64,000 nt of DNA from Micromonospora musae. Its GTDB lineage: Bacteria > Actinomycetota > Actinomycetes > Mycobacteriales > Micromonosporaceae. Position numbers and translations under genes: made by a program. Under the pieces are notes generated by a model. The model was not told the origin of the DNA, did not search any database, and saw nothing but the letters and a program-made list of their open reading frames with translations. This document shows positions 29,743 to 55,824 of this stretch, piece after piece. The stretch covers positions 248,001-312,000 of the forward strand of contig NZ_RAZT01000010.1 in the NCBI RefSeq assembly GCF_003626635.1, written 5' to 3'. Each line of letters starts with the position of its first letter. Position 1 is the stretch's first letter.

Positions 29743-29778
29743 ATGTCGTCTCACTGGTCGCTGCGAGTACTTATCTGA
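29743..29778 (+). CDS. ilvB leader peptide
   Basis: The 11-codon ORF MSSHWSLRVLI ends in Leu-Arg-Val-Leu-Ile just before its stop, so it samples leucine, valine and isoleucine charging. Its stop codon overlaps the first base of the hairpin that follows. Placement before a hairpin pair and ilvB makes it the leader of a transcription attenuator. Confidence 0.75.
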   Translation: MSSHWSLRVLI

Positions 29779-29806
29779 GCGCACTCTCCCTGATCGAGAG
29801 TGCGCT
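29778..29806 (+). promoter_or_regulatory. First hairpin of the ilvB attenuator
   Basis: AGCGCACTCTC and GAGAGTGCGCT are perfect 11-bp arms around a 7-nt loop. A ribosome stalled at the leader Leu/Val/Ile codons (29761-29775) would cover the left arm and free the right arm, which could then interfere with the terminator directly downstream. The exact antiterminator pairing was not resolved. Confidence 0.65.
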
Positions 29807-29840
29807 GGCCCCGTGCATCTGCACGAGGGCCGTTTTTATT
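29807..29840 (+). terminator. Intrinsic terminator of the ilvB attenuator
   Basis: GGCCCCGTGCA pairs with TGCACGAGGGCC (one bulged A), followed directly by GTTTTTATT. This is one of the few U-tailed terminators in the window, and it lies 80 bp before ilvB rather than after a gene, which supports attenuation. Confidence 0.85.
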
Positions 29841-35695: not shown

Positions 35696-36073
35696 TCAGT
35701 GAGGTACGCGGGCCGGCGGCGGGTAGACCGAGCCGTCCTGCGCGTCGAAGAGCATGAGCCGGTGCTCACCGGCGAGCCGCTCGATGTCGAGCAGCACCTG
35801 GTCCTCGCAGGCGGGGTTCAGGTTCATCTCGATGTGGTCGGCGGCCGCGTGCAGCGGCGCGACCTCCCACGGGGTGCCCTGCGCCGCCGGACGATCCGGG
35901 TAGCTGGCGGTGATCGCACGGTAGAAGGCGACCAGTCGGTGATCCGGCTGGCGCTTGGCGTGTTCTCCCTGCCGGCACCGCTGCACCGCTGCTCGTACGT
36001 CCTCGGGCGTCGCCCCGTCCATCAGGGCCCACACGCTCAGATCGAAACTCACGGCGCACAGAGTGCCATTCAA
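35696..36073 (-). CDS. Conserved hypothetical protein, 125 residues
   Basis: Not recognised. The protein reads as a folded soluble domain (VSFDLSVWALMDGATPEDVRAAVQRC, then HAAADHIEMNLNPACEDQVLLDIERLAGEHRLMLFDAQDGSVYPP) with strong codon bias, so it is probably real. The ATG at 36073 or the GTG seven codons later (36052) may be the start; neither has a good ribosome site. It stands alone between serA and apbE. The 294-bp gap upstream (36074-36367) contains a direct repeat TTGCGTCGA near 36158 and the apbE terminator. Confidence 0.65.
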   Translation of the reverse strand: MNGTLCAVSFDLSVWALMDGATPEDVRAAVQRCRQGEHAKRQPDHRLVAFYRAITASYPDRPAAQGTPWEVAPLHAAADHIEMNLNPACEDQVLLDIERLAGEHRLMLFDAQDGSVYPPPARVPH

Positions 36074-36305
36074 CGTTCACCATGTCGAAACTGCCCCGCC
36101 GCAGGCCAGCCGTCTGGTTCCCGTCATCCCGCCGGGACGGTCCGCTGTGGAGACTCTTGCGTCGAGTTGCGTCGATTCGCTAGCGTACCGGTGCGGTCAC
36201 CGGCCGGGCACCGCGACGTCGACCCGTCTTCGGGTGGCGCGGTCGACCCCGGCCCGACCGGCCCGCACCCCTCGAATGCGCGAGCCACGCGCACTCGTCG
36301 CTGAC

Positions 36306-36341
36306 CGGCCCCCACGGTCGTTGCCGCGGGCGTGGGGGCCG
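36306..36341. terminator. Hairpin downstream of apbE
   Basis: CGGCCCCCACG and its exact complement form an 11-bp stem with a 14-nt loop, about 27 bp beyond the apbE stop on the minus strand. Confidence 0.6.
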
Positions 36342-36367
36342 ATCGCCGACCCGCGTATCGCAGATCC

Positions 36368-37213
36368 TCAACGACGGTCGGCGAAGAGCGCCCGGTAGTC
36401 CGAGGCCTCCTTGAACCAGGCCAGCCCCGCCGGGCCGGCCGCGTAGAGCGCCGTGGCGTACGCGTCGGCGACCGTCAGGTCCGGGCCCACCACCGTCGCG
36501 GCGAGCAGTTGTTCGGCCGGCTGCCCGGTGTGCGGGTCGACGACGTGTCCCTGCCGGCCGCTCACCCCGGAGGTGCCGACCGCGCCCGCGGTCATCTCCA
36601 GCACCAGCGGCTGACGATCGTGCTCGACCGGGTGGTGCACGGCGATCCGCCAGGGCCCACCGTGCGGGGCGTGTCCGCGTACGACCAGGTCGGCGCCGCA
36701 GACCACGGCGTAGTCGTGGACCCCGTTGGCGCGTAGCCGGGCGGCCGCGCGCTCCACCGCCCAGCCGCCGAGCAGGCCGCCCGGGTCGAAGCCGCCGGGG
36801 ACCGCCCAGGCGTCGAACCAGCCGTCGGTCGCCGCGCGCATGGCGGCGCAGCGATCCACGAGGTCGGCGAGGGGCGGGTAGGACTCGGCGCCGATCTCGC
36901 CCCGACGCAGCCGGGAGACGAGGCTGTCCGGCCGGGTCGGGCCGTAGGTGAGGTCGATCGCACGCAGTTCGGCCACCGCGTCCCGCAGTGCCTCGCCGAC
37001 GGCCCGGCGGCCCAGCCAGGTCGGCGCGTTGAGCAGCAGCGTGTACTCGGCGGTGGTCGTCCGGACGGTGTGCTGTACCGCGATCAGGTCGGGCCGGACC
37101 GAGGGGGAGCGGTCGACGCGGCGGGCGGGGCTCCCGAGCCGCAGGTCGGGTCGGCGGTGCCGGAAGGCAGCCGGGTCGGGCCAGCGGGTCCGTGGCTGCT
37201 CGTCGATGCGCAT
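36368..37213 (-). CDS. FAD:protein FMN transferase (ApbE family)
   Basis: ApbE proteins attach FMN to a threonine of flavoproteins, using FAD, usually outside the membrane. The 281-residue protein shows FDPGGLLGGWAVERAAARL, the equivalent of the conserved glycine-rich FAD site, and GHVVDPHTGQPAEQLLAATVVGPDLTVADAYATALYAAG with the metal-binding region. No signal peptide or lipobox is seen in the N-terminus, which is unusual for ApbE. The ATG at 37213 is preferred over an upstream start at 37282. Target flavoprotein is not nearby. Confidence 0.85.
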   Translation of the reverse strand: MRIDEQPRTRWPDPAAFRHRRPDLRLGSPARRVDRSPSVRPDLIAVQHTVRTTTAEYTLLLNAPTWLGRRAVGEALRDAVAELRAIDLTYGPTRPDSLVSRLRRGEIGAESYPPLADLVDRCAAMRAATDGWFDAWAVPGGFDPGGLLGGWAVERAAARLRANGVHDYAVVCGADLVVRGHAPHGGPWRIAVHHPVEHDRQPLVLEMTAGAVGTSGVSGRQGHVVDPHTGQPAEQLLAATVVGPDLTVADAYATALYAAGPAGLAWFKEASDYRALFADRR

Positions 37214-37435
37214 GGCGAATCGCCCCCTTGCGAGTGGTGGCAGCGACGGCGCGGCCACCGGCGCGGGCCCCCGTCGACCCACCCACGACCAGGCTAGGCA
37301 GCGAAGATGACTGCTTCATGAAACTCAGCTGGGAGGGTCCTGTGCATCGGCACGTCTCATGATATGGACTCCGCGTACCGGAAGGCGGGACGTCCGCGTA
37401 CCGTGGGCCGAAACGGCGAGCAGAGGAGCGCAGGC

Positions 37436-38467
37436 GTGGCACGGATCGCGGTGGTGGCCGGGGACGGAATCGGTCCCGAGGTGGTCGCGCAGGCCCGCAA
37501 GGTCCTCGACGCGGTGCTCCCCGGCGTGCAGGCCACCGAGTACGACCTCGGCGCGGCTCGCTGGCACCGGACCGCAGAGGTGCTGCCGGACTCGGTCCTG
37601 ACCGAGCTGGCACAGCACGACGCGATTCTGCTCGGCGCGGTCGGCGACCCGACCGTGCCCCCCGGGGTGCTGGAACGTGGCCTGCTGCTCAAGCTCCGGT
37701 TCGCCTTCGACCAGTACGTCAACCTCCGGCCGTCCCGGCTCTGGCCCGGAGTGCCCGGCCCGCTCGCCACCGTGAAGCCCGGCGAGGTCGACCTGGTCGT
37801 GGTGCGGGAGGGCACCGAGGGGCTCTACGCCGGGGCCGGCGGGACGCTGCACCGCGACACCCCCGCCGAGGTCGCCACCGAGGAGAGCCTCAACACCCGG
37901 CACGGGGTGGAGCGGGTGATCCGCGACGCGTTCGCCCGCGCCGGCCGTCGGGAACGCCGCAAGGTCACCCTGGTGCACAAGACCAACGTGCTCACCCACG
38001 CCGGCTCGCTCTGGTCGCGCACCTTCGAGGCGGTCGCCGCCGAGCACCCCGACGTCAGCACCGAGTACCAGCACGTCGACGCCGCCGCGATGTTCCTGGT
38101 CACCCAGCCGCAGCGCTACGACGTGGTGGTCACCGACAACCTCTTCGGCGACATCCTCACCGACATCGCCGCCGCCGTGACGGGCGGCATCGGGCTGGCG
38201 GCCAGCGGCTGCATCAACCCGGAGGGGACGTACCCCTCGATGTTCGAGCCGGTGCACGGCTCCGCGCCGGACATCGCCGGCCAGGGCGTGGCCGATCCGG
38301 TCGCCGCCGTGCTCTCCGCCGCCCTCCTGCTCGACCAGCTCGGGCACGCCGACGCCGCGACCCGGGTCAGCGCCGCCGTCGCCACCGAACTGGCCAACCG
38401 AGCGCCGGGCGTACCCGTACGCACCGCCGAGGTGGGCGACCGGCTCGCGGCCCTCGCGGCGGGCTGA
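37436..38467 (+). CDS. leuB: 3-isopropylmalate dehydrogenase
   Basis: LeuB oxidises 3-isopropylmalate in leucine synthesis and methylmalate in the citramalate route. The 343-residue protein shows [14 protein letters not shown], the Arg-rich [10 protein letters not shown], the KTNVLTHAG lysine, [27 protein letters not shown] and [15 protein letters not shown]. The GTG at 37436 has AGGAG seven bases before it and gives the family start [13 protein letters not shown]; a longer frame from 37364 reads upstream repeats (TCCGCGTACC twice). Confidence 0.95.
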
Positions 38468-38653
38468 ACCGGCGGGTGGTGGCGACCGGCCGAGCGCGGA
38501 CTCGGCCGGCAGGCTAACGGCGGCCGTCAGCGGTGGTCCCGGTGCCGGTCGAACCGGCCGGGGCTGCCGAAGCGGAGCACGCTTGCGACGCCTGCACCGG
38601 GCCCCGGTACCGTTCTTTCGGCGCAGCTCGGCGAGCCGGGCGGCGCTTTCCCC

Positions 38654-38667
38654 TGAACGAACGTTCG
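38654..38667. promoter_or_regulatory. SOS-box-like palindrome upstream of ilvE
   Basis: TGAACGAACGTTCG contains GAAC-N4-GTTC, the core of the actinobacterial LexA box (consensus TCGAACRNRYGTTCGA), with two changes at the ends. It lies about 75 bp before ilvE, an unexpected place for SOS control, and may instead serve another regulator. Confidence 0.3.
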
Positions 38668-38739
38668 GGGTAAGTTTCTGGGCACCACATCGTCGGCGTG
38701 CGGTCGCGCATGCCGTTGTCCGGTAGGGAGGTCAGCGCG

Positions 38740-39837
38740 ATGAGCGGTGGTGACAAGCTCGACTTCGAGACCCGTCCGAATCCCGCACCGGTATCCGCCG
38801 CGGATCGGGCCGCCATGCTGGCCAATCCCGGCTTCGGCCGGATCTTCACCGATCACATGGTGACCATCCGCTACGCCGACGGCAAGGGCTGGTACGACGC
38901 CCGGGTCGAGGCGCGCGCGCCGATCCCGATGGACCCGGCCGCCGCCGTCCTGCACTACGCGCAGGAGATCTTCGAAGGGATGAAGGCGTACCGCACCAGG
39001 GACGGTGGGGTGACCTTGTTCCGTCCGGAGGCGAACGCGGCCCGGTTCGCCGTCTCCGCGAAGCGGATGGCGATGCCGGTGCTGCCGCCGGAGACCTTCG
39101 TCGACTCGCTGCGGCGGCTCATCGAGATCGACCGGGACTGGATCCCGACCGACCCGGAGGGCAGCCTCTACCTGCGGCCGTTCATGTTCGCCAGCGAGGT
39201 CTTCCTCGGCGTCCGCCCGGCCACCGAGTACCTCTACGTGGCGATCGCCTCGCCCGTGGGGGCGTACTTCAGCGGCGGGGTGAAGCCCGTCTCGGTCTGG
39301 GCGACCCCGGACTACACCCGCGCCGCCCCGGGCGGCACCGGCGCCGCGAAGTGCGGCGGCAACTACGCCGCCTCGCTGGTCGCCCAGGCGGAGGCGATCG
39401 AGCACGGCTGTGACCAGGTGGTCTTCCTCGACGCGGTGGAGCGCCGCTACGTCGACGAGCTGGGCGGCATGAACGTCTTCTTCGTCTACGACGACGGGAG
39501 CGTGGTGACGCCGCCGCTGACCGGCGCGATCCTGCCCGGCATCATCCGGGAGTCGGTGCTCACGCTCGCCGCGCAGGCGGGGCACCGGGTGGAGGAGCGC
39601 CCGGTCAGCTTCGACGACTGGCAGGCGGACGCGACCAGCGGTCGGCTGCGGGAGGCCTTCGCCTGCGGCACCGCCGCCGTCGTCACCCCGATCGGCCAGG
39701 TGAAGTCCCCGGACGGCGAGTTCCTGATCGGTGGCGGTGAGCCGGGGCAGGTCACCATGGCGCTGCGTCAGCAGCTGGTCGACATCCAGCGCGGCGACGC
39801 CCCCGACCCGCACGGCTGGGTCACCCGGCTGCTCTGA
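38740..39837 (+). CDS. ilvE: Branched-chain amino acid aminotransferase
   Basis: IlvE moves the amino group from glutamate to the 2-oxo acids of leucine, isoleucine and valine with pyridoxal phosphate. The 365-residue protein fits the class IV long type: LHYAQEIFEGMKAYRT, the catalytic Lys in GAAKCGGNYAASLVAQ, VFLDAVERRYVDELGGMNVFFVYDDG and the C-terminal EAFACGTAAVVTPIGQV. The ATG at 38740 has AGGGAGGT seven bases before it. Confidence 0.96.
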   Translation: MSGGDKLDFETRPNPAPVSAADRAAMLANPGFGRIFTDHMVTIRYADGKGWYDARVEARAPIPMDPAAAVLHYAQEIFEGMKAYRTRDGGVTLFRPEANAARFAVSAKRMAMPVLPPETFVDSLRRLIEIDRDWIPTDPEGSLYLRPFMFASEVFLGVRPATEYLYVAIASPVGAYFSGGVKPVSVWATPDYTRAAPGGTGAAKCGGNYAASLVAQAEAIEHGCDQVVFLDAVERRYVDELGGMNVFFVYDDGSVVTPPLTGAILPGIIRESVLTLAAQAGHRVEERPVSFDDWQADATSGRLREAFACGTAAVVTPIGQVKSPDGEFLIGGGEPGQVTMALRQQLVDIQRGDAPDPHGWVTRLL

Positions 39838-39846
39838 GCGGAGCGG

Positions 39847-39879
39847 GCCCCTTCCCGACCGAGCCGGTCGAGAAGGGGC
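39847..39879. terminator. Hairpin between ilvE and the phosphatase gene
   Basis: GCCCCTTCCCGACC pairs with GGTCGAGAAGGGGC at 13 of 14 positions with a 5-nt loop, placed between convergent genes. Confidence 0.65.
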
Positions 39880-39931
39880 TCGCGCCAGACGTCGTACGCC
39901 ACCGCGCGGAATCCGCCGGCGCCGCCGCAGG

Positions 39932-40681
39932 TCACTCCAGCAGATGGTCGCGGAGTGCGGCGAGCTGGGCGTCGGTCACCCCGGCGTGCCGCAGGTAGCC
40001 CTCGACGGAGCCGTACCCCTCCCGCAGCTCGGCGAGGAAGAGCAGCATCGTGTCGGAGGGCGAGGCCAGGAACGGCGGCGGCAGCTCCTCGGCGGCCGGC
40101 GTCGTGGCGGCCAACCAGGCGCTGAACCGCTCCGACGCCGCGCTGCTCAGGGCGTAGTCCGCGGCGATCTCGTCGTCGGCGACACCGAGTACGGCCAGGG
40201 TCAGCGCGCAGACGATGCCGGTGCGGTCCTTGCCGGCCACGCAGTGCACCACGACCGGCCCGCTGGTGGCGTCGGAGATCAGCCCGAGCGCCTCGGCCAG
40301 CCCGGCCGTGCCGGTCTGCGCCAGGTCGGCGTAGCGGTCGGCGAGGTAGCGCGCCAGGCTCGTGCCCGACTCGTACGGCACCTGCCCCCACTCCGCGTGC
40401 TCCGGGTGGATGTGCCGGTAGGTGAGGCCCGGCCAGTCCGGCACCCGGCCGTCGCGCTCCACCTCGTGCGAGCGGCGCAGGTCGATGACCGTCCGGATGC
40501 CGAGGGCGGTGAACGCGTCCCGGTCGTCCTCGTTCAGCCGGTGCAGGGAGTCGGAGCGGTAGAGCCGGCCCCGGCGTACGGTGCGTCCGTCGTGACCGGC
40601 GTAGCCGCCGGCGTCGCGGAAGTTGAAGATCGTGCCGAAGGGGATGTGTCGATCGACCTCGGTGGCGTCCACGCCTGACAC
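39932..40681 (-). CDS. PtpB-like protein tyrosine/lipid phosphatase
   Basis: The 249-residue protein matches the PtpB/DSP-type family. HCVAGKDRTG gives the CX5R active site (Cys147, Arg153), and NFRDAGGYAGHDGRTVRRGRLYRSDSL is the usual N-terminal motif. IDLRRSHEVERDG follows. Family members act on phosphotyrosine or phosphoinositides; the substrate here is unknown. The start is a GTG at 40681. It stands between ilvE and the PRC-barrel gene. Confidence 0.9.
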   Translation of the reverse strand: MSGVDATEVDRHIPFGTIFNFRDAGGYAGHDGRTVRRGRLYRSDSLHRLNEDDRDAFTALGIRTVIDLRRSHEVERDGRVPDWPGLTYRHIHPEHAEWGQVPYESGTSLARYLADRYADLAQTGTAGLAEALGLISDATSGPVVVHCVAGKDRTGIVCALTLAVLGVADDEIAADYALSSAASERFSAWLAATTPAAEELPPPFLASPSDTMLLFLAELREGYGSVEGYLRHAGVTDAQLAALRDHLLE

Positions 40682-40735
40682 GTTACCGGCCGGCGGGGCG
40701 GTACCCCACCGGCCGATAGGAACAGGAACAACCGT

Positions 40736-41194
40736 TTACCGAGCGGTACCCGGCGGGATGGCCGAGTACGTGTCGCTGTAGTAACCACCGAGCTTCTCCC
40801 GGTAGGCCGGGTCGGTGTCGGCGGTCTCGTCGAACTCGGGCGCGGCCTTGATCTGGTCCTTGCTCCGGTCGACGTAGACCTTCCGCTCGTCGTGGTCGAC
40901 GTGGTTGACGGTTCCGGCGGGAACCATGACCTTCTTGCCGAAGATCCACGGACCGGTGTCCACCACCAGGTAGCTGGAGCTCACCTCGTGGCTGGACCGG
41001 TCCACCTTGCCGATGCCACCGTCGTTCGCCTCCACCTTGTAGCCCACCAGGTCGACGCCGGAGACCCCGGCGTCGTCCCGGTATCGCCACGGGTCGAAGG
41101 TGCCGCCGGGTGTGCCACCCGGGAAGGCGCTGCTGTCACCGGGTACGAGCGGGTCCGGCGTCCCGTGGGTCGTTCGAGGGTCGAGCCGCTCCAT
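40736..41194 (-). CDS. PRC-barrel domain protein
   Basis: The 152-residue protein has a PRC-barrel core (VDLVGYKVEANDGGIGKVDRSSHEVSSSYLVVDTGPWIFGKKVMVPAGTVNHV, in separate strands) and a charged tail with KVYVDRSKDQIKAAPEFDE. This matches the common stand-alone actinobacterial type linked to stress. The function is unknown. It lies 124 bp after ahpD on the same strand, so cotranscription is possible. Confidence 0.82.
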   Translation of the reverse strand: MERLDPRTTHGTPDPLVPGDSSAFPGGTPGGTFDPWRYRDDAGVSGVDLVGYKVEANDGGIGKVDRSSHEVSSSYLVVDTGPWIFGKKVMVPAGTVNHVDHDERKVYVDRSKDQIKAAPEFDETADTDPAYREKLGGYYSDTYSAIPPGTAR

Positions 41195-41318
41195 GGCGTT
41201 TCACTCCTCTTCTCGACTGATCGGGGGGTGGTGCCCTGTCTGTCCCATGTCCTACCCGCCGTCGAGATCGCTACACCCGGGCCGACGCGGAAATGGGTCG
41301 GGGCGGGCCGGCGGCCTT

Positions 41319-41846
41319 TCAGGCCAGCGCGGACTCCGTGTCGTACGCGACGGCGGTGGCCTGCACCACGGCGGCGATCCGGAGCCCCTCGTTCACCTGG
41401 TCCGGGCCGATGCCCGCGGCGCGCAGCTTCTGCTCGTGCGACTCCAGGCAGACCTCGCAGCCGTTGATCGCGGAGACGGCGAGGCACCAGAGCTCGAAGT
41501 CCACCTTCGGCACGCCCGGCCGGGCGACGATCTGCATCCGCAGCCGGCCGTGGATCGACAGGTACTCCTCGTCGAGCATGTGCTTCGCCCGGTAGTAGAC
41601 GTTGCTCATCGCCATGATGGTGGCGGCGCCCTTGGCCGCCTCGATCGCCTCCGGGGCGAGATGTTCGGCCGCCTCGGCGGCGATCTCCCGCAGCACCACG
41701 GGGTTGCGGGCCGCCACCGCGCACGCCAGCGCGGTGCCCCAGACCTGGGTCGGGGTGAGCGGGGAGTCCTGGATGGTCGACCGGAGGTTCTGGCCGACGT
41801 CCCTGGCGTACTCGGGCAGACCCGCCTTGACCGCGTCCACTCCCAT
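41319..41846 (-). CDS. ahpD: Alkylhydroperoxidase AhpD
   Basis: AhpD reduces peroxides or passes electrons from lipoamide to AhpC. The 175-residue protein matches the mycobacterial enzyme even in numbering: Glu118 in FELW, Cys130 and Cys133 in GCEVCLESHE, and His137. The ATG at 41846 starts the family sequence MGVDAVKAGLPEYARD; a longer frame runs into the remnant upstream. ahpC normally precedes ahpD, but here only a stub of it is present. Confidence 0.95.
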   Translation of the reverse strand: MGVDAVKAGLPEYARDVGQNLRSTIQDSPLTPTQVWGTALACAVAARNPVVLREIAAEAAEHLAPEAIEAAKGAATIMAMSNVYYRAKHMLDEEYLSIHGRLRMQIVARPGVPKVDFELWCLAVSAINGCEVCLESHEQKLRAAGIGPDQVNEGLRIAAVVQATAVAYDTESALA

Positions 41847-41847
41847 G

Positions 41848-41898
41848 TCAGGCTCCGGCGGGGTCGTAGGCGGGGAAGTGGTCACCGGCAGTGAGCAC
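41848..41898 (-). pseudogene. Remnant of ahpC (first 16 codons)
   Basis: AGGAGG stands four bases before a GTG (41898) that opens VLTAGDHFPAYDPAGA and a stop, then one base and the ahpD ATG. The peptide lines up with the start of AhpC (M-L-T-x-G-D-x-F-P pattern). The rest of ahpC, about 170 codons with both peroxidatic cysteines, is missing. This looks like a clean internal deletion that left the ribosome site and first codons. Translation of the stub may now feed ahpD by coupling. Confidence 0.6.
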
Positions 41899-42094
41899 GG
41901 CTCCTCCTGGGCAGCGGCGAACGGGCCGGGTACATCCTCCACCCGGGGGTGGCCCGGCAGCGTGTGAAGCAGCTCACGGAAGCGCTGTTCTGCCTCGTGG
42001 TGGCCGGTCCTCGCGGTGTCGGGAGGCTCCGCCGCTGTCCCGGGATGTGGATTCCGCTTCCCAAAATCAACTGACGGGTGGAAGAGTACCGAAC

Positions 42095-42127
42095 GTGACC
42101 AGCTCCGCCCTGATTCTTAGCAACTAG
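42095..42127 (+). CDS. cimA leader peptide
   Basis: The ten-codon ORF reads MTSSALILSN with a GTG start. Leu-Ile-Leu sits just before the end, as in an attenuator leader for leucine/isoleucine. AAGAGT seven bases before GTG could be a -10, so the mRNA may be leaderless; no clear -35 was found. Confidence 0.7.
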   Translation: MTSSALILSN

Positions 42128-42153
42128 CGCGCCCGGCTCCCCGCCGAGCGCGC
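42127..42153 (+). promoter_or_regulatory. First hairpin of the cimA attenuator
   Basis: GCGCGC-C-CGGC pairs with GCCG-A-GCGCGC around TCCCC. It begins at the last base of the leader stop, the same geometry as before ilvB. Confidence 0.65.
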
Positions 42154-42183
42154 AGACCTCCCGCGTCAGCGGGGGGTCTTTTT
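42154..42183 (+). terminator. Intrinsic terminator of the cimA attenuator
   Basis: AGACCTCCCGC pairs with GCGGGGGGTCT (one G-U pair) around a GTCA loop, followed by TTTTT. It lies 70 bp before cimA, so it works as a leader terminator. Confidence 0.85.
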
Positions 42184-42255
42184 GTTGCCGGGGCGGCCCG
42201 CGCGGCCGCGACCACCGCTCGTTCGTTCCCGCACCTCGGTCCAGAAAGGCACGTC

Positions 42256-43839
42256 ATGACGTTCCAGGTCTACGACACGACGTTGCGCGACGGTGCGCAG
42301 CGTGAGGGGCTCAGCTACTCGGTGGTCGACAAGCTGGCCGTGGCGCGGCTGCTCGACGAGTTCGGCGTCGGGTTCATCGAGGGCGGCTGGCCCGGTGCGG
42401 TGCCGAAGGACACCGAGTTCTTCCGGCGCGCGACCAAGGAGCTCGACCTGCGGCACGCACTGCTCGTCGCGTTCGGCGCCACCCGCCGGGCCGGCGTCCC
42501 GGTCGCCGAGGACCCGCAGGTCCGCGCCCTGCTCGACGCGGAGACGCCGGCGGTGACCCTGGTCGCCAAGGCCGACCTGCGACACGTCGAACGGGCGCTG
42601 CGCACCACCCCGGCCGAGAACCTCGCGATGATCCACGACACGGTGGCGTACCTGGTCGCCGAGGGTCGTCGGCTCTTCGTCGACGGCGAGCACTTCTTCG
42701 ACGGCTACCGGCAGGACGCCGAGTACGGCGCCGCGGTGGTGGAGACCGCGCTGGCCGCCGGAGCCGAGGCGTTCGTCCTCTGCGACACCAACGGTGGGAT
42801 GCTCCCGTCCCAGGTGACCGCCGTGATCGCCGACCTGACCGCCCGGCTCGGCGTCGGCCCCGAACGGCTCGGCATCCACTGCCAGAACGACACTGCCTGC
42901 GCGGTGGCGAACACCGTCGCCGCCGTCGAGGCCGGGGTACGGCACTTCCAGGGCACCGCGAACGGCTACGGCGAACGGCCGGGCAACGCCGACCTCTTCG
43001 CGGTGGTCGCCAACCTCCAACTCAAGCTCGGGCTGCCCGTCCTACCAGCGGGCTGCCTGGAACAGATGGTGCGGGTCTCGCACGCCATCGCCGAGATCGC
43101 CAACATCGCCCCGGACACCCATCAGGCGTACGTCGGGGCTGCTGCCTTCGCCCACAAGGCCGGGCTGCACGCGAGCGCGATCAAGGTCGACCCGTTGCTC
43201 TACAACCACGTGGACCCGTCCGTAGTGGGCAACGACATGCGGATCCTGGTAACCGAGATGGCCGGCCGGGCCAGCGTCGAGCTCAAGAGTCGCGAGCTCG
43301 GGCTGGACCTGGCCGGTCATCCGGAGACCCTGTCCCGGGTGACCCGGCGGGTCAAGGAGCTGGAGGCCGGCGGTTGGTCGTTCGAGGCGGCGGACGCCTC
43401 GTTCGAGCTGCTGGTCCGCTCCGAGCTGCCCGACGGCGCCCCGCCCCGGCCGTTCGCCCTCGAGTCGTACCGGGTCCTCGTGGAGCACCGCGAGGACGGC
43501 GCGGTGGTCTCCGAGGCCACCGTCAAGATCCGCGTACGCGGCGAACGGGTGATCGCCACCGCCGAGGGGAACGGCCCGGTCAACGCCCTGGACGAGGCGC
43601 TCCGGGTCGGTCTGGTTCGGCACTACCCGGAGCTGCGCGAGTTCGAGCTCGCCGACTACAAGGTGCGCATCCTCGACGGCAGCAGCGGCACGGACGCGGT
43701 GACCCGCGTACTGCTGGAGACGGCCGACGGCGCGGGCCGGGACTGGACCACTGTCGGTGTGCACCCCAACGTGGTCGAGGCGAGCTGGCACGCCCTCGTC
43801 GACGCGCTCACCTACGGGCTGGCCCGCAGCCGGGTCTGA
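42256..43839 (+). CDS. cimA: (R)-Citramalate synthase
   Basis: CimA condenses pyruvate and acetyl-CoA to citramalate, the start of the threonine-independent route to isoleucine. The 527-residue protein is of the citramalate/isopropylmalate synthase family: VYDTTLRDGAQREGLSYSVVDK holds the metal Asp and catalytic Arg, FVDGEHFFDGYRQDAEYG is typical of the citramalate type, and HCQNDTACAVANTVAAVEAG holds the metal His. A C-terminal LeuA-dimer domain ends it. Leucine synthase LeuA is not in the window. The start is ATG 42256 after GAAAGG. Confidence 0.92.
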   Translation: MTFQVYDTTLRDGAQREGLSYSVVDKLAVARLLDEFGVGFIEGGWPGAVPKDTEFFRRATKELDLRHALLVAFGATRRAGVPVAEDPQVRALLDAETPAVTLVAKADLRHVERALRTTPAENLAMIHDTVAYLVAEGRRLFVDGEHFFDGYRQDAEYGAAVVETALAAGAEAFVLCDTNGGMLPSQVTAVIADLTARLGVGPERLGIHCQNDTACAVANTVAAVEAGVRHFQGTANGYGERPGNADLFAVVANLQLKLGLPVLPAGCLEQMVRVSHAIAEIANIAPDTHQAYVGAAAFAHKAGLHASAIKVDPLLYNHVDPSVVGNDMRILVTEMAGRASVELKSRELGLDLAGHPETLSRVTRRVKELEAGGWSFEAADASFELLVRSELPDGAPPRPFALESYRVLVEHREDGAVVSEATVKIRVRGERVIATAEGNGPVNALDEALRVGLVRHYPELREFELADYKVRILDGSSGTDAVTRVLLETADGAGRDWTTVGVHPNVVEASWHALVDALTYGLARSRV

Positions 43840-43858
43840 ACCCGGGGCGCGTGACCGG

Positions 43859-44857
43859 TCACGAAGCGGGCAGGCTCAGGGTGGCCAGCACCGCCCGGTG
43901 GTCGCTGCCCGGCAGGCCGAACACCTCGACCGAACGGGCGGCGATCCGGCGGTCGACCAGGACGTGGTCGATGGCGACCGGAGGGATCAGGTCCCCGTCG
44001 TACGGGCCCCACGTGCCGACCAGCCCCTGGCCGGTGGCGTCGGCGGCGTCGACGTAGCCGGTGTGCAGCAGAGCACGCAACGGGCCGTGATCGAGGGTCG
44101 CGTTGAAGTCCCCGGCGAGGATCCGCAGCATCCCGTCGGGGGTGGCCGGTGGCTGGGCCGCCAGGTCGGTGCGCCAGAAGTCGACCTGGTCGATCGCGTA
44201 CGGGGCGGACGGGTGCGCGGACTCCACCCGCACCGGCGGCGCGCCGGGAACGGCGATCGTGCCGTACGCCTGGGTGAAGCCCCAACCGCCGCGGTTGTGG
44301 CGTACGCCCGCGTCGCTGATCGGGAAGCGTGAGTAGAGGCCGGAGCCGGGCGTCCCGTCGACCGCGTTGAGCTGTCGGTACGGCAGCAGCCGGTCGAGTC
44401 CGAGCCGGTCGAGGTCGGCCTGGGCAGCGGGGGTGAACTCCTGCACGACCAGCACGTCGACCCGGTTCGCCCGGACCAGTTCGGCCAGGGTGTGCGGATC
44501 CGCGGCGCCCGCGAGCAGGTTGGCGGTGAGCAGTCGTACCGCCGGACCGGCCACCGGTAGCGGCGTCGAGGAGAGCGCCCGGGGCGCCACCACCCCGACG
44601 AGCGCGACGGTGGTCACGGCGGCGACCAGCGCGGGCCAGTGGCGGCGCAGCGCGAGCGTGAGGACCAGGGGCAGGAGGCTCCCGGCCGCGACGTACGGGG
44701 TGAAGGCCAGCGCCTGCACGAGCGGCCCCCGGTCCAGCCCGATGAGCCGTATTGCCGTCCAGGTGGCGCCCGGCAGCACGGCGAGCCAGCAGAGTACGGC
44801 GATCCAGCGGCGCTGTGGGTGGCCGACCGCTCGCCGCTCCGGAACCTCGACGATCAT
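43859..44857 (-). CDS. Membrane endonuclease/exonuclease/phosphatase family protein
   Basis: The 332-residue protein has three membrane helices (WIAVLCWLAVLPGATWTAI, AFTPYVAAGSLLPLVLTLAL, LVAAVTTVALVGVVAP) and an outside EEP domain. Catalytic segments are LLTANLLAG (Asn), VLVVQEFTP (Glu), ILAGDFNATLDHG (Asp, Asn) and GSDHRAVLATL (Asp, His). Substrate is unknown; phosphodiesterase or lipid phosphatase roles are known in the family. It is convergent with cimA, 19 bp apart. Confidence 0.88.
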   Translation of the reverse strand: MIVEVPERRAVGHPQRRWIAVLCWLAVLPGATWTAIRLIGLDRGPLVQALAFTPYVAAGSLLPLVLTLALRRHWPALVAAVTTVALVGVVAPRALSSTPLPVAGPAVRLLTANLLAGAADPHTLAELVRANRVDVLVVQEFTPAAQADLDRLGLDRLLPYRQLNAVDGTPGSGLYSRFPISDAGVRHNRGGWGFTQAYGTIAVPGAPPVRVESAHPSAPYAIDQVDFWRTDLAAQPPATPDGMLRILAGDFNATLDHGPLRALLHTGYVDAADATGQGLVGTWGPYDGDLIPPVAIDHVLVDRRIAARSVEVFGLPGSDHRAVLATLSLPAS

Positions 44858-44992
44858 GTCGGAAACCTATCCCGGCGTGCCCGCCGATGGTGGCCCGACG
44901 GATCCCGCAGCCCGTTTTCGTGAATGCTGCTGGATTCGTCTTTCACAATTTTTGCGATCGGCGTAGGGCGATTTTCCAGATGGCTTCCGCTA

Positions 44993-45022
44993 TTGACTCC
45001 CTACTTTTTGCGGTGCTACGTT
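44993..45022 (+). promoter_or_regulatory. Likely promoter of the secreted-protein gene
   Basis: TTGACT and TACGTT are 18 bp apart in an AT-rich stretch. The start would lie near 45029, giving a leader of about 190 nt. The 363-bp gap 44858-45220 holds this promoter and the hairpin below, and no other gene. Confidence 0.5.
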
Positions 45023-45134
45023 CCACCTGGTCGGAGCGCCGCCACGGTGAGTAGTAATAGCTGCTCAGAGTGGGTGCAGTCATCGGGAAAACGATATTGA
45101 AGGTGCGCTGGATCTTATTTCTCGGTGATGTGTG

Positions 45135-45179
45135 GCGAGGTGCCCGACAGTTAGCAGGGCACTAACCGTCCCGCCTCGC
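45135..45179 (+). other. Structured 5' leader hairpin
   Basis: An outer stem GCGAGG/CCTCGC encloses an inner stem GTGCCC/GGGCAC and an alternative dyad GTTAG/CTAAC. It lies within the long leader, 41 bp before the start codon, and may control translation or mRNA decay. Confidence 0.45.
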
Positions 45180-45220
45180 GGGTCGGCCGAATTCGCACGG
45201 TCACACAAGGGAGACCTGTC

Positions 45221-45718
45221 ATGACCACACCATTCCGACGTAAGGCGATCGCGGTCGTGTTCGCCGTTCTCGGGCTCACCCTCGCCGGGGGCGGGATCGC
45301 CATCGCCCAGCCCGCGGCACAGGCGCCCGGCCAGCCGGCGGCCCGCGCGAGCAGCACCCAGCCGGCGGTGACGGCGGAGTCGACCCGCTCGGCCCGGGCC
45401 GCCCTCAAGGCCGGCGTGGGCACGCTCGCGGCGAGCAACGTCGGCACCGTCGTCAACGCCAACGGCACCAAGGCGCGCGGCAGCGGCGTCGTGATCAAGT
45501 ACGGAACCGGCCAGTACGAGGTCCAGTACGGCTACGTCGTCAGCTCCGCGGTCTACCAGGCCACCATCGGCCGCCCGGACGCCTGCTGCATCCCGCCGGG
45601 CGGGGAGGTCGTGGTGGCTCCGCGGCTGAGCACGCCGAACGGGGTCTTCATCCAGACCCGCAACTCCGCCGGCACCCCGGTCGACCTGCCGTTCCACCTG
45701 GTCGTCCACAGCTACTGA
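45221..45718 (+). CDS. Secreted protein of unknown function
   Basis: The 165-residue protein has a Sec-type signal peptide (KAIAVVFAVLGLTLAGGGIAIA, cut near AIA-QPA). An Ala/Ser-rich linker follows, then a domain of about 90 residues with AASNVGTVVNANGTKARGSG, YEVQYGYVVSSAVYQATIG and VFIQTRNSAGTPVDLPFHLVVHS. The domain looks like a beta-sandwich. A Cys-Cys pair (DACCIPPGG) is its only cysteine. GGGAGA lies before ATG. No family was recognised. Confidence 0.82.
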   Translation: MTTPFRRKAIAVVFAVLGLTLAGGGIAIAQPAAQAPGQPAARASSTQPAVTAESTRSARAALKAGVGTLAASNVGTVVNANGTKARGSGVVIKYGTGQYEVQYGYVVSSAVYQATIGRPDACCIPPGGEVVVAPRLSTPNGVFIQTRNSAGTPVDLPFHLVVHSY

Positions 45719-45729
45719 CGGCACCGCCA

Positions 45730-45765
45730 CGCGACCCCCGCGCGATCGCCCGCGCGGGGGTCGCG
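45730..45765. terminator. Terminator after the secreted-protein gene
   Basis: CGCGACCCCCGCGCG and its exact complement are 15-bp arms around a 6-nt loop, followed by TCGTT. It separates this gene from the moxR cluster. Confidence 0.75.
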
Positions 45766-45914
45766 TCGTTCACTTCGACCGTTTTGGCCCCGGGACTGCC
45801 GGCTCGGGGTCTGCCTTGGCCGTCCGGGTGAATCGTCCCGCTCCGGTCGTCGAAGGGTCGGCCAGGGCCGCACAATCCGACGTTTGTCGCCCGGTCGCCC
45901 GGGAAGCATGCACC

Positions 45915-46961
45915 GTGACGGACATCTCGGACACCCTGGCCAGCGTGCCCAGCCCGGTCGAAGACGAACCGACAGCCGCCGAGCTGGAACAGACCCTCTC
46001 CGAGGTCAAACGCGTGATCGTCGGGCAGGACCGGCTCGTCGAACGCCTGCTCGTCGCCCTCGTCGCCGACGGGCACTGCCTCCTGGAGGGGGTACCCGGC
46101 GTGGCCAAGACGCTGGCCGCGCAGACCCTCGCCACCGTGGTCGGCGGCACCTTCTCCCGGATCCAGTTCACCCCCGACCTCGTACCGTCGGACATCGTGG
46201 GCACCCGGATCTACCGGGCCTCCCAGGAGAGCTTCGACATCGAGTTGGGCCCGGTGATGGCGAACCTGGTGCTCGCCGACGAGATCAACCGTGCCCCCGC
46301 GAAGGTGCAGTCCGCGCTCCTGGAGGCGATGGCGGAGCGGCAGGTCTCCATCGGCGGGCGCAGCCACCCCGTACCGTCGCCGTTCCTGGTGCTGGCCACC
46401 CAGAACCCGATCGAGTCGGAGGGGGTCTACCAGCTGCCGGAGGCGCAGCGGGACCGCTTCCTCATGAAGGTCGTGGTCGACTACCCGAGCGACACCGACG
46501 AACTGGCGATCCTGTACCGGATGAGCACCGATCGCCCCAAGGCCCGGCAGGTGCTCGACCCGGACCGGCTGCGCCGCCTGCAGAGCCACGCGGAGCGGAT
46601 CTTCGTCCACCACGCCGTCGCCGAGTACGTGGTCCGGCTCATCCTGGCCACCCGGGATCCGGGACGGTTCGGGCTCACCGAGATCGAGCCGATGCTGGCG
46701 TACGGGGCGAGCCCCCGCGCCACCCTCGGCCTGGTCTCCGCCGCCCGGGCGCAGGCGCTGCTGCGCGGCCGGGGGTACGTGCTGCCCGAGGACGTCCGTG
46801 AACTGGCCGTCGACGTGCTCGCCCACCGGCTGGTGCTGACCTTCGACGCGGTCGCCGACGGCGTCACCGCCGAGTCGGTGGTACGCCGACTGGTCGAGGT
46901 GGTGCCCCCGCCACGACTCGCGCCCCAGCCCGAGCAGGCGTCGGACCTGGCGGCGGCATGA
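45915..46961 (+). CDS. MoxR-family AAA+ ATPase
   Basis: MoxR ATPases help assemble or activate partner enzyme complexes, usually with DUF58 and VWA proteins. The 348-residue protein has Walker A EGVPGVAKTLAAQ, Walker B VLADEINRAPAKVQSALLEAM, and the sensor region FLVLATQNPIESEGVYQLPEAQRDRFLMK. The GTG at 45915 is preferred over a start at 45816 because the conserved part begins after it. Its end overlaps the DUF58 gene by four bases. Confidence 0.93.
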   Translation: MTDISDTLASVPSPVEDEPTAAELEQTLSEVKRVIVGQDRLVERLLVALVADGHCLLEGVPGVAKTLAAQTLATVVGGTFSRIQFTPDLVPSDIVGTRIYRASQESFDIELGPVMANLVLADEINRAPAKVQSALLEAMAERQVSIGGRSHPVPSPFLVLATQNPIESEGVYQLPEAQRDRFLMKVVVDYPSDTDELAILYRMSTDRPKARQVLDPDRLRRLQSHAERIFVHHAVAEYVVRLILATRDPGRFGLTEIEPMLAYGASPRATLGLVSAARAQALLRGRGYVLPEDVRELAVDVLAHRLVLTFDAVADGVTAESVVRRLVEVVPPPRLAPQPEQASDLAAA

Positions 46962-55332: not shown

Positions 55333-55404
55333 TGGGGTATGGGGTAATTGGCAGCCCGACTGATTCTGGTTCAGTTAGTCTAGGTTCGAGTCCTGGTACC
55401 CCAG
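55333..55404 (+). tRNA. tRNA-Gln (anticodon CUG)
   Basis: The 72-nt cloverleaf has acceptor TGGGGTA/TACCCCA, anticodon stem ACTGA/TCAGT with loop TTCTGGT (anticodon CTG), and T-arm GGTTCGAGTCC. CCA is not encoded. It may be a substrate of GatCAB, also encoded here. Confidence 0.93.
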
Positions 55405-55406
55405 CA

Positions 55407-55430
55407 ACCGGTGTTCGCGAGAACGCCGGT
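55407..55430 (+). terminator. Hairpin after tRNA-Gln
   Basis: ACCGGTGTTC and GAACGCCGGT pair at nearly all positions around a GCGA loop, placed three bases after the tRNA. Confidence 0.6.
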
Positions 55431-55483
55431 CGCTGGATTCTGAAGTCCGCGCTCTGTCCCTCCGGGGGCGGGTGAGTGTCTGA

Positions 55484-55489
55484 TAGGGT
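55484..55489 (+). promoter_or_regulatory. Candidate -10 of the first tRNA-Glu
   Basis: TAGGGT lies 39 bp before the tRNA; the -35 position is weak. Confidence 0.4.
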
Positions 55490-55528
55490 TCAGCGGCGCC
55501 GCTCGCACGAGCGGTTAGGGAAGGTTCT

Positions 55529-55601
55529 GGCCCCGTCGTCTAGCGGCCCAGGACGCCGCCCTCTCAAGGCGGTAGCGCCGGTTCGAATCCGGTCGGGGCT
55601 A
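55529..55601 (+). tRNA. tRNA-Glu (anticodon CUC), copy 1
   Basis: The 73-nt gene has acceptor GGCCCCG/CGGGGCT (first pair G-U), anticodon stem CCGCC/GGCGG with loop CTCTCAA (anticodon CTC) and T-arm GGTTCGAATCC. CCA is not encoded. Confidence 0.93.
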
Positions 55602-55610
55602 CATCGGGTA

Positions 55611-55640
55611 CGGCCCGTCTCGTTTCGGCGAGGCGGGCCG
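55611..55640 (+). terminator. Hairpin after tRNA-Glu copy 1
   Basis: CGGCCCGTCTCG pairs with CGAGGCGGGCCG (one G-U) around a short loop. Confidence 0.6.
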
Positions 55641-55699
55641 TTCGCTTCTGCGCGGTCTACCCCCGCGGACCCGGTCCACACCCCTGGGCGGGGCGTCGC

Positions 55700-55705
55700 T
55701 AGACT
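55700..55705 (+). promoter_or_regulatory. -10 element of the second tRNA-Glu
   Basis: TAGACT is a near-ideal -10 located 46 bp before the tRNA, so copy 2 has its own promoter. The -35 is weak. Confidence 0.5.
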
Positions 55706-55751
55706 ACAGCGGCACCGCCCAAGCGGGTGGATGTAAGTACGAAAAGCGCCT

Positions 55752-55824
55752 GGCCCCGTCGTCTAGCGGCCCAGGACGCCGCCCTCTCAAGGCGGTAGCG
55801 CCGGTTCGAATCCGGTCGGGGCTA
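55752..55824 (+). tRNA. tRNA-Glu (anticodon CUC), copy 2
   Basis: The 73-nt gene is identical in sequence to copy 1, 223 bp downstream, with unrelated flanks except the last few bases before the gene. Confidence 0.93.

Follow-up and report, generated by a model that had tools for sequence, protein, structure and literature searches.

A conserved isoleucine-codon leader upstream of cimA in Actinomycetia, a candidate attenuator whose hairpin abuts the terminator

In the 64,000-nt stretch of the Micromonospora musae genome analysed here (the window), the citramalate synthase gene cimA is preceded by a ten-codon ORF, a hairpin and a U-tailed terminator. Do these parts form a transcription attenuator, which amino acid would it report on, and how could a ribosome on the leader keep the terminator from acting? 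Ahead of cimA a first-pass annotation had described a GTG-started leader reading MTSSALILSN, a hairpin running from its stop codon onward and a terminator with a U tail, and all of these are present (Table 1).

The cimA leader in the window and among relatives

By profile search the product of cimA is a TIGR00977 citramalate synthase (610.5 bits, cut-off 450), with HMGL-like and LeuA_dimer domains. The RNA of 42090-42190 folds at -49 kcal/mol (z = -4.35), a value that none of 200 shuffles equals. A terminator scan of 36000-46000 reports 3 sites, close to the shuffle mean of 2.1 (sd 1.6); with 11 stem pairs, the site in the cimA leader alone exceeds 5. We considered that it might be the ordinary end of an upstream gene and rejected this, because the upstream ORF (41319-41942) lies on the opposite strand and diverges from cimA; most likely the terminator acts on RNA begun in the gap 5' of cimA. 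Rfam at gathering score reports only three tRNAs in the whole window and no T-box, riboswitch or known leader, and its matches at 41950-42300 and in five further loci are all below threshold. The three tRNA genes stand in a row at 55333-55824, and two of them have identical covariance scores of 59.7 bits, possibly a tandem duplication.

Table 1. Coordinates of the cimA leader region and of the ilvB sister element in the window.
Feature	Position	Strand	Remarks
ilvB sister element	29743-29837	+	leader ATG..TGA, MSSHWSLRVLI, 29743-29778
ilvB element structures	hairpin 29778-29806; terminator 29807-29831; T run 29833-29837	+	
Extended -10-like element TG-G-AAGAGT	42079-42087	+	7 nt 5' of the leader start; read from the sequence
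Leader ORF, GTG..TAG	42095-42127	+	(V/M)TSSALILSN, ten codons; TAG = 42125-42127
Control codons in the leader	ATT 42113-42115; CTT 42116-42118		ATT, Ile; CTT, Leu in the window, Ile in most relatives
Hairpin A	42127-42153	+	GCGCGC stem, G+C-rich; first paired base is the last base of TAG
Intrinsic terminator	42154-42183	+	11-pair stem 42154-42179; T run 42179-42183
cimA, citramalate synthase	42256-43839	+	527 aa; ATG start; gene presumed controlled

The leader is not peculiar to this genome. Among 61 related genomes, 57 have cimA (G041, which is 86% complete, G043, G056 and G058 give only weak family matches for it), and the element precedes the gene in 52 of these 57, namely in 37/37 within the genus and 15/20 outside. 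It is missing from G037, G038, G039, G053 and G054, where cimA, read by eye, follows closely behind the apparent end of leuB. To the wider set belong named Actinomycetia loci from Micromonospora, Streptomyces, Nonomuraea, Amycolatopsis, Modestobacter, Cellulomonas, Knoellia and others; not a random sample, these loci are the 80 highest-ranking of 582 confirmed matches. A terminator with an adjoining hairpin is found 5' of cimA in 72 of these 80, the loci without one being L128, L132, L133, L138, L140, L179, L184 and L189. The presence of the leader in relatives that carry cimA, which the first-pass annotation had named as the check to make, is thus borne out in both sets. The same parser, which asks for a hairpin 0-4 nt before a terminator, reports 14/80, 0/79, 0/77 and 1/75 in other stretches of these loci, and 1/80 in dinucleotide shuffles. 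The motif ATYATY occurs at most 16 nt before the hairpin in 57 of the best 80 of 582 loci and in none of the five controls. Because the element is conserved 5' of cimA so far above the controls, a chance origin is unlikely. In the related genomes and the named loci (best 80 of 582), roughly 25-290 nt separate the terminator from the point where the CimA match begins. Two of the loci, L127 and L140, are on MAG contigs titled Bifidobacterium breve and have unlike cimA regions, the element being present in L127 and not in L140, and these species labels may be wrong.

With a threshold of E <= 0.01, a covariance model built from 22 sequences (alignment A2) matches, by score alone, 272 of the order's 397 genomes. 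In the source genome it matches over its full length at the cimA locus only; at E <= 10 it otherwise reports just the opposite strand of the cimA leader terminator. Searching the source genome for an exact Ile-Ile pattern yields nothing, as expected, because the second control codon in the window is CTT.

Ahead of the leader the window has an extended -10-like element, with a hexamer that starts with A and so lies outside the pattern TGN[CTG]ANNNT. In the 72 elements from the best 80 of 582 matches, this pattern stands within 16 nt ahead of an in-frame start codon at 57 loci and is absent at 15, and in 53 of the 57 the gap from pattern to start is 6-7 nt; start codons were picked by the presence of the pattern, so only the gap length is informative. 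With a -10-like pattern 6-7 nt before the start codon, the spacing suggests that the leader RNA may be leaderless, its 5' end falling at or beside the leader start codon.

Isoleucine codons and the geometry of the two hairpins

The codon content of the leader points to the amino acid. We counted codons in one fixed frame relative to the base of hairpin A, and kept a listing by the frame richest in Ile out of the statistics. The codon at -11 to -9 is Ile at 64 of the 72 loci (best 80 of 582), and the slots from -14 to -6 hold at least one Ile at 69 and at least two at 63. The other two frames give Ile at 0/72 and 3/72, the three being the Streptomyces loci L125, L131 and L141, in which a one-base shift has displaced the leader. 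At five upstream offsets, again over the 72 loci, at least one Ile is seen in 2-7 and two Ile in none. The automatic parse had taken the wrong hairpin at 8 of the 72 loci, and since the rule by which these were re-anchored by hand itself demanded an Ile-type triplet nearby, we redid the counts without them: Ile at -11 to -9 in 56/64, at least one in 61/64 and at least two in 55/64, against 0/64 and 3/64 in the other frames (best 80 of 582). With a one-base shift allowed, every locus in all 38 genus-level groups has Ile (best 80 of 582; groups assigned by hand, as named in the records). Ile codons in one specific frame imply that the leader is translated.

The leaders also favour a rare codon. 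Of their 153 Ile codons 93 are ATT, a codon used for 40 of 1207 Ile residues in the cimA coding regions that follow. Across seven window coding sequences, ATT accounts for 2 of 132 Ile codons and CTT for 0 of 321 Leu codons, and these are the two codons at the control positions of the window leader. Among the 37 leaders of the genus, 32 have Ile-Ile, 4 have Ile-Leu (the window, L004, L005 and L006) and one, L007, a single Ile; L042 and L048, outside the genus, are further examples with one Ile codon only. The run Leu, Ile, Leu that the first-pass annotation had pointed to is therefore truly that of the window leader and at the same time a local variant (4/37), the conserved codons being Ile. 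Leucine as the conserved signal is rejected, since Ile is what relatives keep at the control position. Of the proposed control of cimA by isoleucine and leucine supply, the isoleucine part is supported, with attenuation as its probable means, and leucine drops out. Between families the Ile codons are all that the leaders have in common; the rest of the peptide and the position of the stop differ, which is the pattern of conserved codons with variable flanks that the annotation had suggested looking for. From these codons and the parts around them, we consider it very likely that the element would act as a ribosome-mediated transcription attenuator coupling cimA to charged tRNA-Ile, a judgement that concerns Ile-codon attenuation as such.

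An unusual feature is how closely the two structures are set. Hairpin A and the terminator are separated by 0 nt in 71 of the 72 loci and by 1 nt in the remaining one (best 80 of 582); the 0-nt figure is 64/72 before hand re-anchoring and 63/64 when the re-anchored loci are left out. The Ile codons lie 6-14 nt from the base of hairpin A, at a nearly constant distance. The stop codon is more mobile: 26 of the 72 loci (best 80 of 582) have TAG at the base of the hairpin, and Streptomyces, Nonomuraea, Amycolatopsis and others have their stop 10-23 nt into hairpin A. L013 uses TGA as its stop, and its outermost hairpin pair shifts accordingly from G-C to A-U. A ribosome covers the RNA to about 12 nt beyond the first base of its A site. 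The observed spacing then fits a hairpin A that is whole when the ribosome is at the Ile codons, and one whose 5' arm is blocked when the ribosome is at the stop.

Covariation supports both stems. In alignment A4, which holds the window and 38 of the 48 named loci whose hairpin does not exceed 40 nt (best 80 of 582; ten close relatives of others were left out, and L188 is outside the 48), 12 of 21 pairs change on both sides. The covariation score is 0.277, against 0.140 in shuffles, none of 500 of which reaches it, and at most 0.099 in slid versions. Both-sided change is seen at 7 of 11 pairs in the terminator and at 5 of 10 in hairpin A. The A4 loci were located by their own complementarity, which favours the structure counted; in A2, with loci located by the terminator motif, both-sided change is seen at 4 of 17 pairs. 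Hairpin A's five outermost pairs, GCGCG/CGCGC at 42127-42131 and 42149-42153 in the window, are invariant in 39/39 sequences, though other G-C stems should serve; a protein contact or an alternative pairing is a possible reason.

The annotation had likened the cimA leader to another attenuator in the same stretch, and the element before ilvB, a gene identified here by NF005860 and TIGR00118, does match its layout (Table 1). The same parser finds a hairpin and a terminator 5' of ilvB in 30/30 chosen genomes, with some placements imprecise, as in L217; the 30 were hand-picked, and G047, G079, G150, G185, G187 and G277 were already known to have a second model match. The spacing between the two structures is 0 nt in 18 of 31 and 1-4 nt in the remainder. 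The ilvB leaders, read by eye, mix Val, Leu and Ile codons, so that codon content follows the gene, with Ile for cimA and Val/Leu/Ile for ilvB. A further case is at L103:1501-2722, where the leader MSLGLIIIDGAG, a hairpin and a terminator stand directly 5' of a Glu/Leu/Phe/Val dehydrogenase gene; here an Ile-codon leader precedes what may be a branched-chain amino acid dehydrogenase.

How termination would be controlled

In the attenuation we propose, RNA polymerase would start at or beside the GTG, and the leader would be translated from the 5' end of the RNA. When isoleucine is sufficient, the ribosome would clear the Ile codons and, at the stop, unwind hairpin A; the terminator would form, and transcription would stop at about 42183. 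When isoleucine is scarce, the ribosome would stall at the Ile codons, its front just reaching the base of hairpin A; this hairpin would be left folded against the terminator, and polymerase would continue into cimA. With the parts in this order, the usual feedback logic requires that hairpin A oppose termination. That a folded hairpin A could by itself impair the abutting terminator is the least certain step, because the two share no bases in fold predictions.

A leader-peptide attenuator of the classical kind has a leader ORF, a terminator between leader and gene, and an antiterminator. The leader ORF is there, with Ile in 69/72 loci and in the other 3 after a one-base shift (best 80 of 582), and so, by sequence and conservation, is the terminator ahead of cimA. 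A second unusual feature is that in equilibrium folding we find no mutually exclusive antiterminator of the trp type: by partition function over three ribosome states, no pairing that excludes the terminator appears at the 72 loci (best 80 of 582). The mean probability of the outer terminator pairs is at least 0.9 in 71/72 loci with the ribosome stalled at Ile, in 69/72 with the 5' arm covered and in 70/72 with no ribosome (best 80 of 582). Low values occur at L116 and L119 with the 5' arm covered, where by eye the loop of hairpin A resembles the terminator 5' arm, at L165 (0.88 without a ribosome), and at L188 in all states, where the script has probably misplaced the terminator end. When 15 examples were folded with the ribosome stalled, each formed hairpin A and the terminator together. 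We also tried pairing between the hairpin A loop and the terminator 3' arm as a general device and rejected it, the mean longest run being 3.8 against 3.6 in shuffled loops; runs of at least 5 occur in 10 of 48 loci (best 80 of 582).

Because the search for an antiterminator was negative, we put the last step forward as a hypothesis. The strict adjacency of the two structures suggests that a folded hairpin A might hinder closure of the terminator at the polymerase. Generalised, this would be attenuation without an antiterminator, in which a hairpin preserved by a stalled ribosome blocks the adjoining terminator by contact, at cimA (Ile) and ilvB (Val/Leu/Ile) alike and throughout the Actinomycetia; we regard that as tentative and rather doubtful.

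For the last step alone, the main rival is a true antiterminator that static folding misses, through a transient, kinetic or boundary-sharing pairing, and we hold this to be a real possibility while not expecting it. It draws on the model for C. glutamicum ilvBNC, which, as set out in the part of PMC11857589 used here, has the same part order, a near-leaderless leader and adjoining hairpins that overlap by 3 nt, the antiterminator and terminator sharing a GCC trinucleotide; in the window, too, the CU before the hairpin could pair with the AG at the base of the terminator if one A bulges out. Yet no overlap triplet of this "fast" type is conserved at cimA, despite the 0-nt spacing in 71/72 loci (best 80 of 582): TAG is replaced by xAG or other triplets in other families, the aligned terminators start with A, U or C, and the terminator forms in all three tested states in 69-71 of 72 loci (best 80 of 582). 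The same system also weighs on the abutting hairpin, which without translation predicts read-through, contrary to the report that losing the leader start codon cuts C. glutamicum ilvBNC expression by 80% (PMC11857589, in the same part); this counts against it. By analogy, the attenuation reading itself has against it a result for S. coelicolor ilvB, where replacement of leader codons is reported to be without effect (as cited in the available portion of PMC1262725). The cimA loci that lack the element (5 of 57 relatives, 8 of the best 80 of 582) and the leaders with a single Ile codon weigh the same way.

Two other accounts would do away with termination control or with the leader as a sensor. 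The leader might act on cimA translation, or bind a protein or ligand, in the style of the LEU element, itself a candidate device without a terminator in actinobacteria (PMC1262725, available portion). The sequence invariance of the outer five pairs of hairpin A (39/39), beyond structural need, would suit such binding, but a strong U-tailed terminator is conserved 5' of cimA and the frame-specific Ile codons speak for a translated leader, so that we judge this account improbable. More improbable still is a functional peptide product of the short ORF, or an ORF that arose by chance next to an ordinary terminator or small RNA. A unit of leader and terminator would indeed resemble a small RNA, and an Rfam istR match covers the element at 20.9 bits, under its cut-off of 45; against this, the families share only the Ile codons while the remaining peptide and the stop position vary, and control frames and offsets are mostly without Ile.

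Known leaders and the citramalate route to isoleucine

The nearest experimental parallel to the cimA leader is ilvBNC of C. glutamicum. The Corynebacterium ilvBNC leader (the ilvB-II motif of PMC10272879 and the "fast attenuator" of PMC11857589, as far as the available text of each goes) likewise has a short, near-leaderless ORF rich in codons for branched-chain residues, a hairpin with its base next to a U-tailed terminator, and a branched-chain amino acid gene downstream. The cimA element differs in its Ile codons, in abutting structures without a shared GCC and in its range across the Actinomycetia, and the window fold has only a 3-pair stem at the start codon, with no hairpin there of the kind described for Corynebacterium. 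The ilvB elements of Corynebacterium, Mycobacterium and Streptomyces surveyed by Seliverstov in 2005 (PMC1262725, available portion) also combine an Ile/Val/Leu short ORF with a terminator, and the ilvB element of the window looks like one of them; the cimA element departs from them in its Ile codon content, and cimA goes unmentioned in that portion, which calls the mode of regulation of the ilv leaders unclear. With the classical attenuators of the trp operon and of leuS/trpS (E. coli, and Streptomyces in the same portion of PMC1262725), the cimA leader shares a control-codon leader, a hairpin and a terminator, whereas no competing antiterminator is detected at cimA. The LEU element of leuA, on the same available text, resembles it in its runs of one branched-chain codon and in the enzyme family (LeuA/CimA), and differs by a pseudoknot that pairs the Leu codons with the leuA Shine-Dalgarno sequence (PMC1262725). 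Influence of an upstream hairpin on an intrinsic terminator is a further point of likeness, with a ribosomal leader in E. coli. In the S10 operon leader a hairpin upstream of the terminator hairpin is needed for L4 control; the controller there is ribosomal protein L4, unlike the leader peptide at cimA.

Actinobacterial leaders of ilvB, leuA, leuS, trp and others are in print (PMC1262725, PMC8079986, PMC10272879, in their available portions), and in published work on actinobacterial leaders we found none for cimA, in agreement with the annotation, which had known of ilv and leu attenuators and of none for cimA; an earlier listing is possible (Lopatovskaya 2010, Mol Biol 44:128; supplementary tables). 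Neither cimA nor citramalate occurs in the main texts of PMC8079986, PMC2965389, PMC10272879, PMC4833913, PMC8269248 and PMC2864571, and cimA does not occur in the main text of PMC11857589; in the available text of PMC12452182, on riboswitches, "citramalate synthase" appears once. What we propose is leader-peptide attenuation on a new gene and over a wide range, for which the classical antiterminator was sought and not found.

The distribution of the element can be set beside that of threonine deaminase. PF00585, the C-terminal domain of many threonine deaminases, has no match in the source genome or in 36 other members of the genus. The source genome does have a threonine ammonia-lyase (TIGR01127, 462.5 bits, cut-off 378.75), and since the one-ACT-domain enzyme of B. 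subtilis is isoleucine-sensitive (PMC3851459, available portion), the enzyme here may by analogy be so too, and cimA need not be the sole entry to isoleucine. Among the relatives that carry cimA, the attenuator is present in 49/49 without PF00585 and in 3/8 with it. The fairer figure, because the genomes are related, is that by genera: 12/12 without PF00585 against 3/7 with it (Fisher p = 0.009). The 11 related genomes with PF00585 comprise 3 without cimA, 5 with cimA and no attenuator, and 3 with both. This suggests, though it does not establish, that control at the enzyme and control of transcription divide the work between them.

With no antiterminator found, the cimA leader offers a compact system in which to ask how ribosome stalling could prevent termination. 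The element marks a LeuA-family enzyme as an isoleucine gene independently of enzyme homology, and the citramalate route to isoleucine gains a specific and widely conserved candidate control point in actinobacteria.
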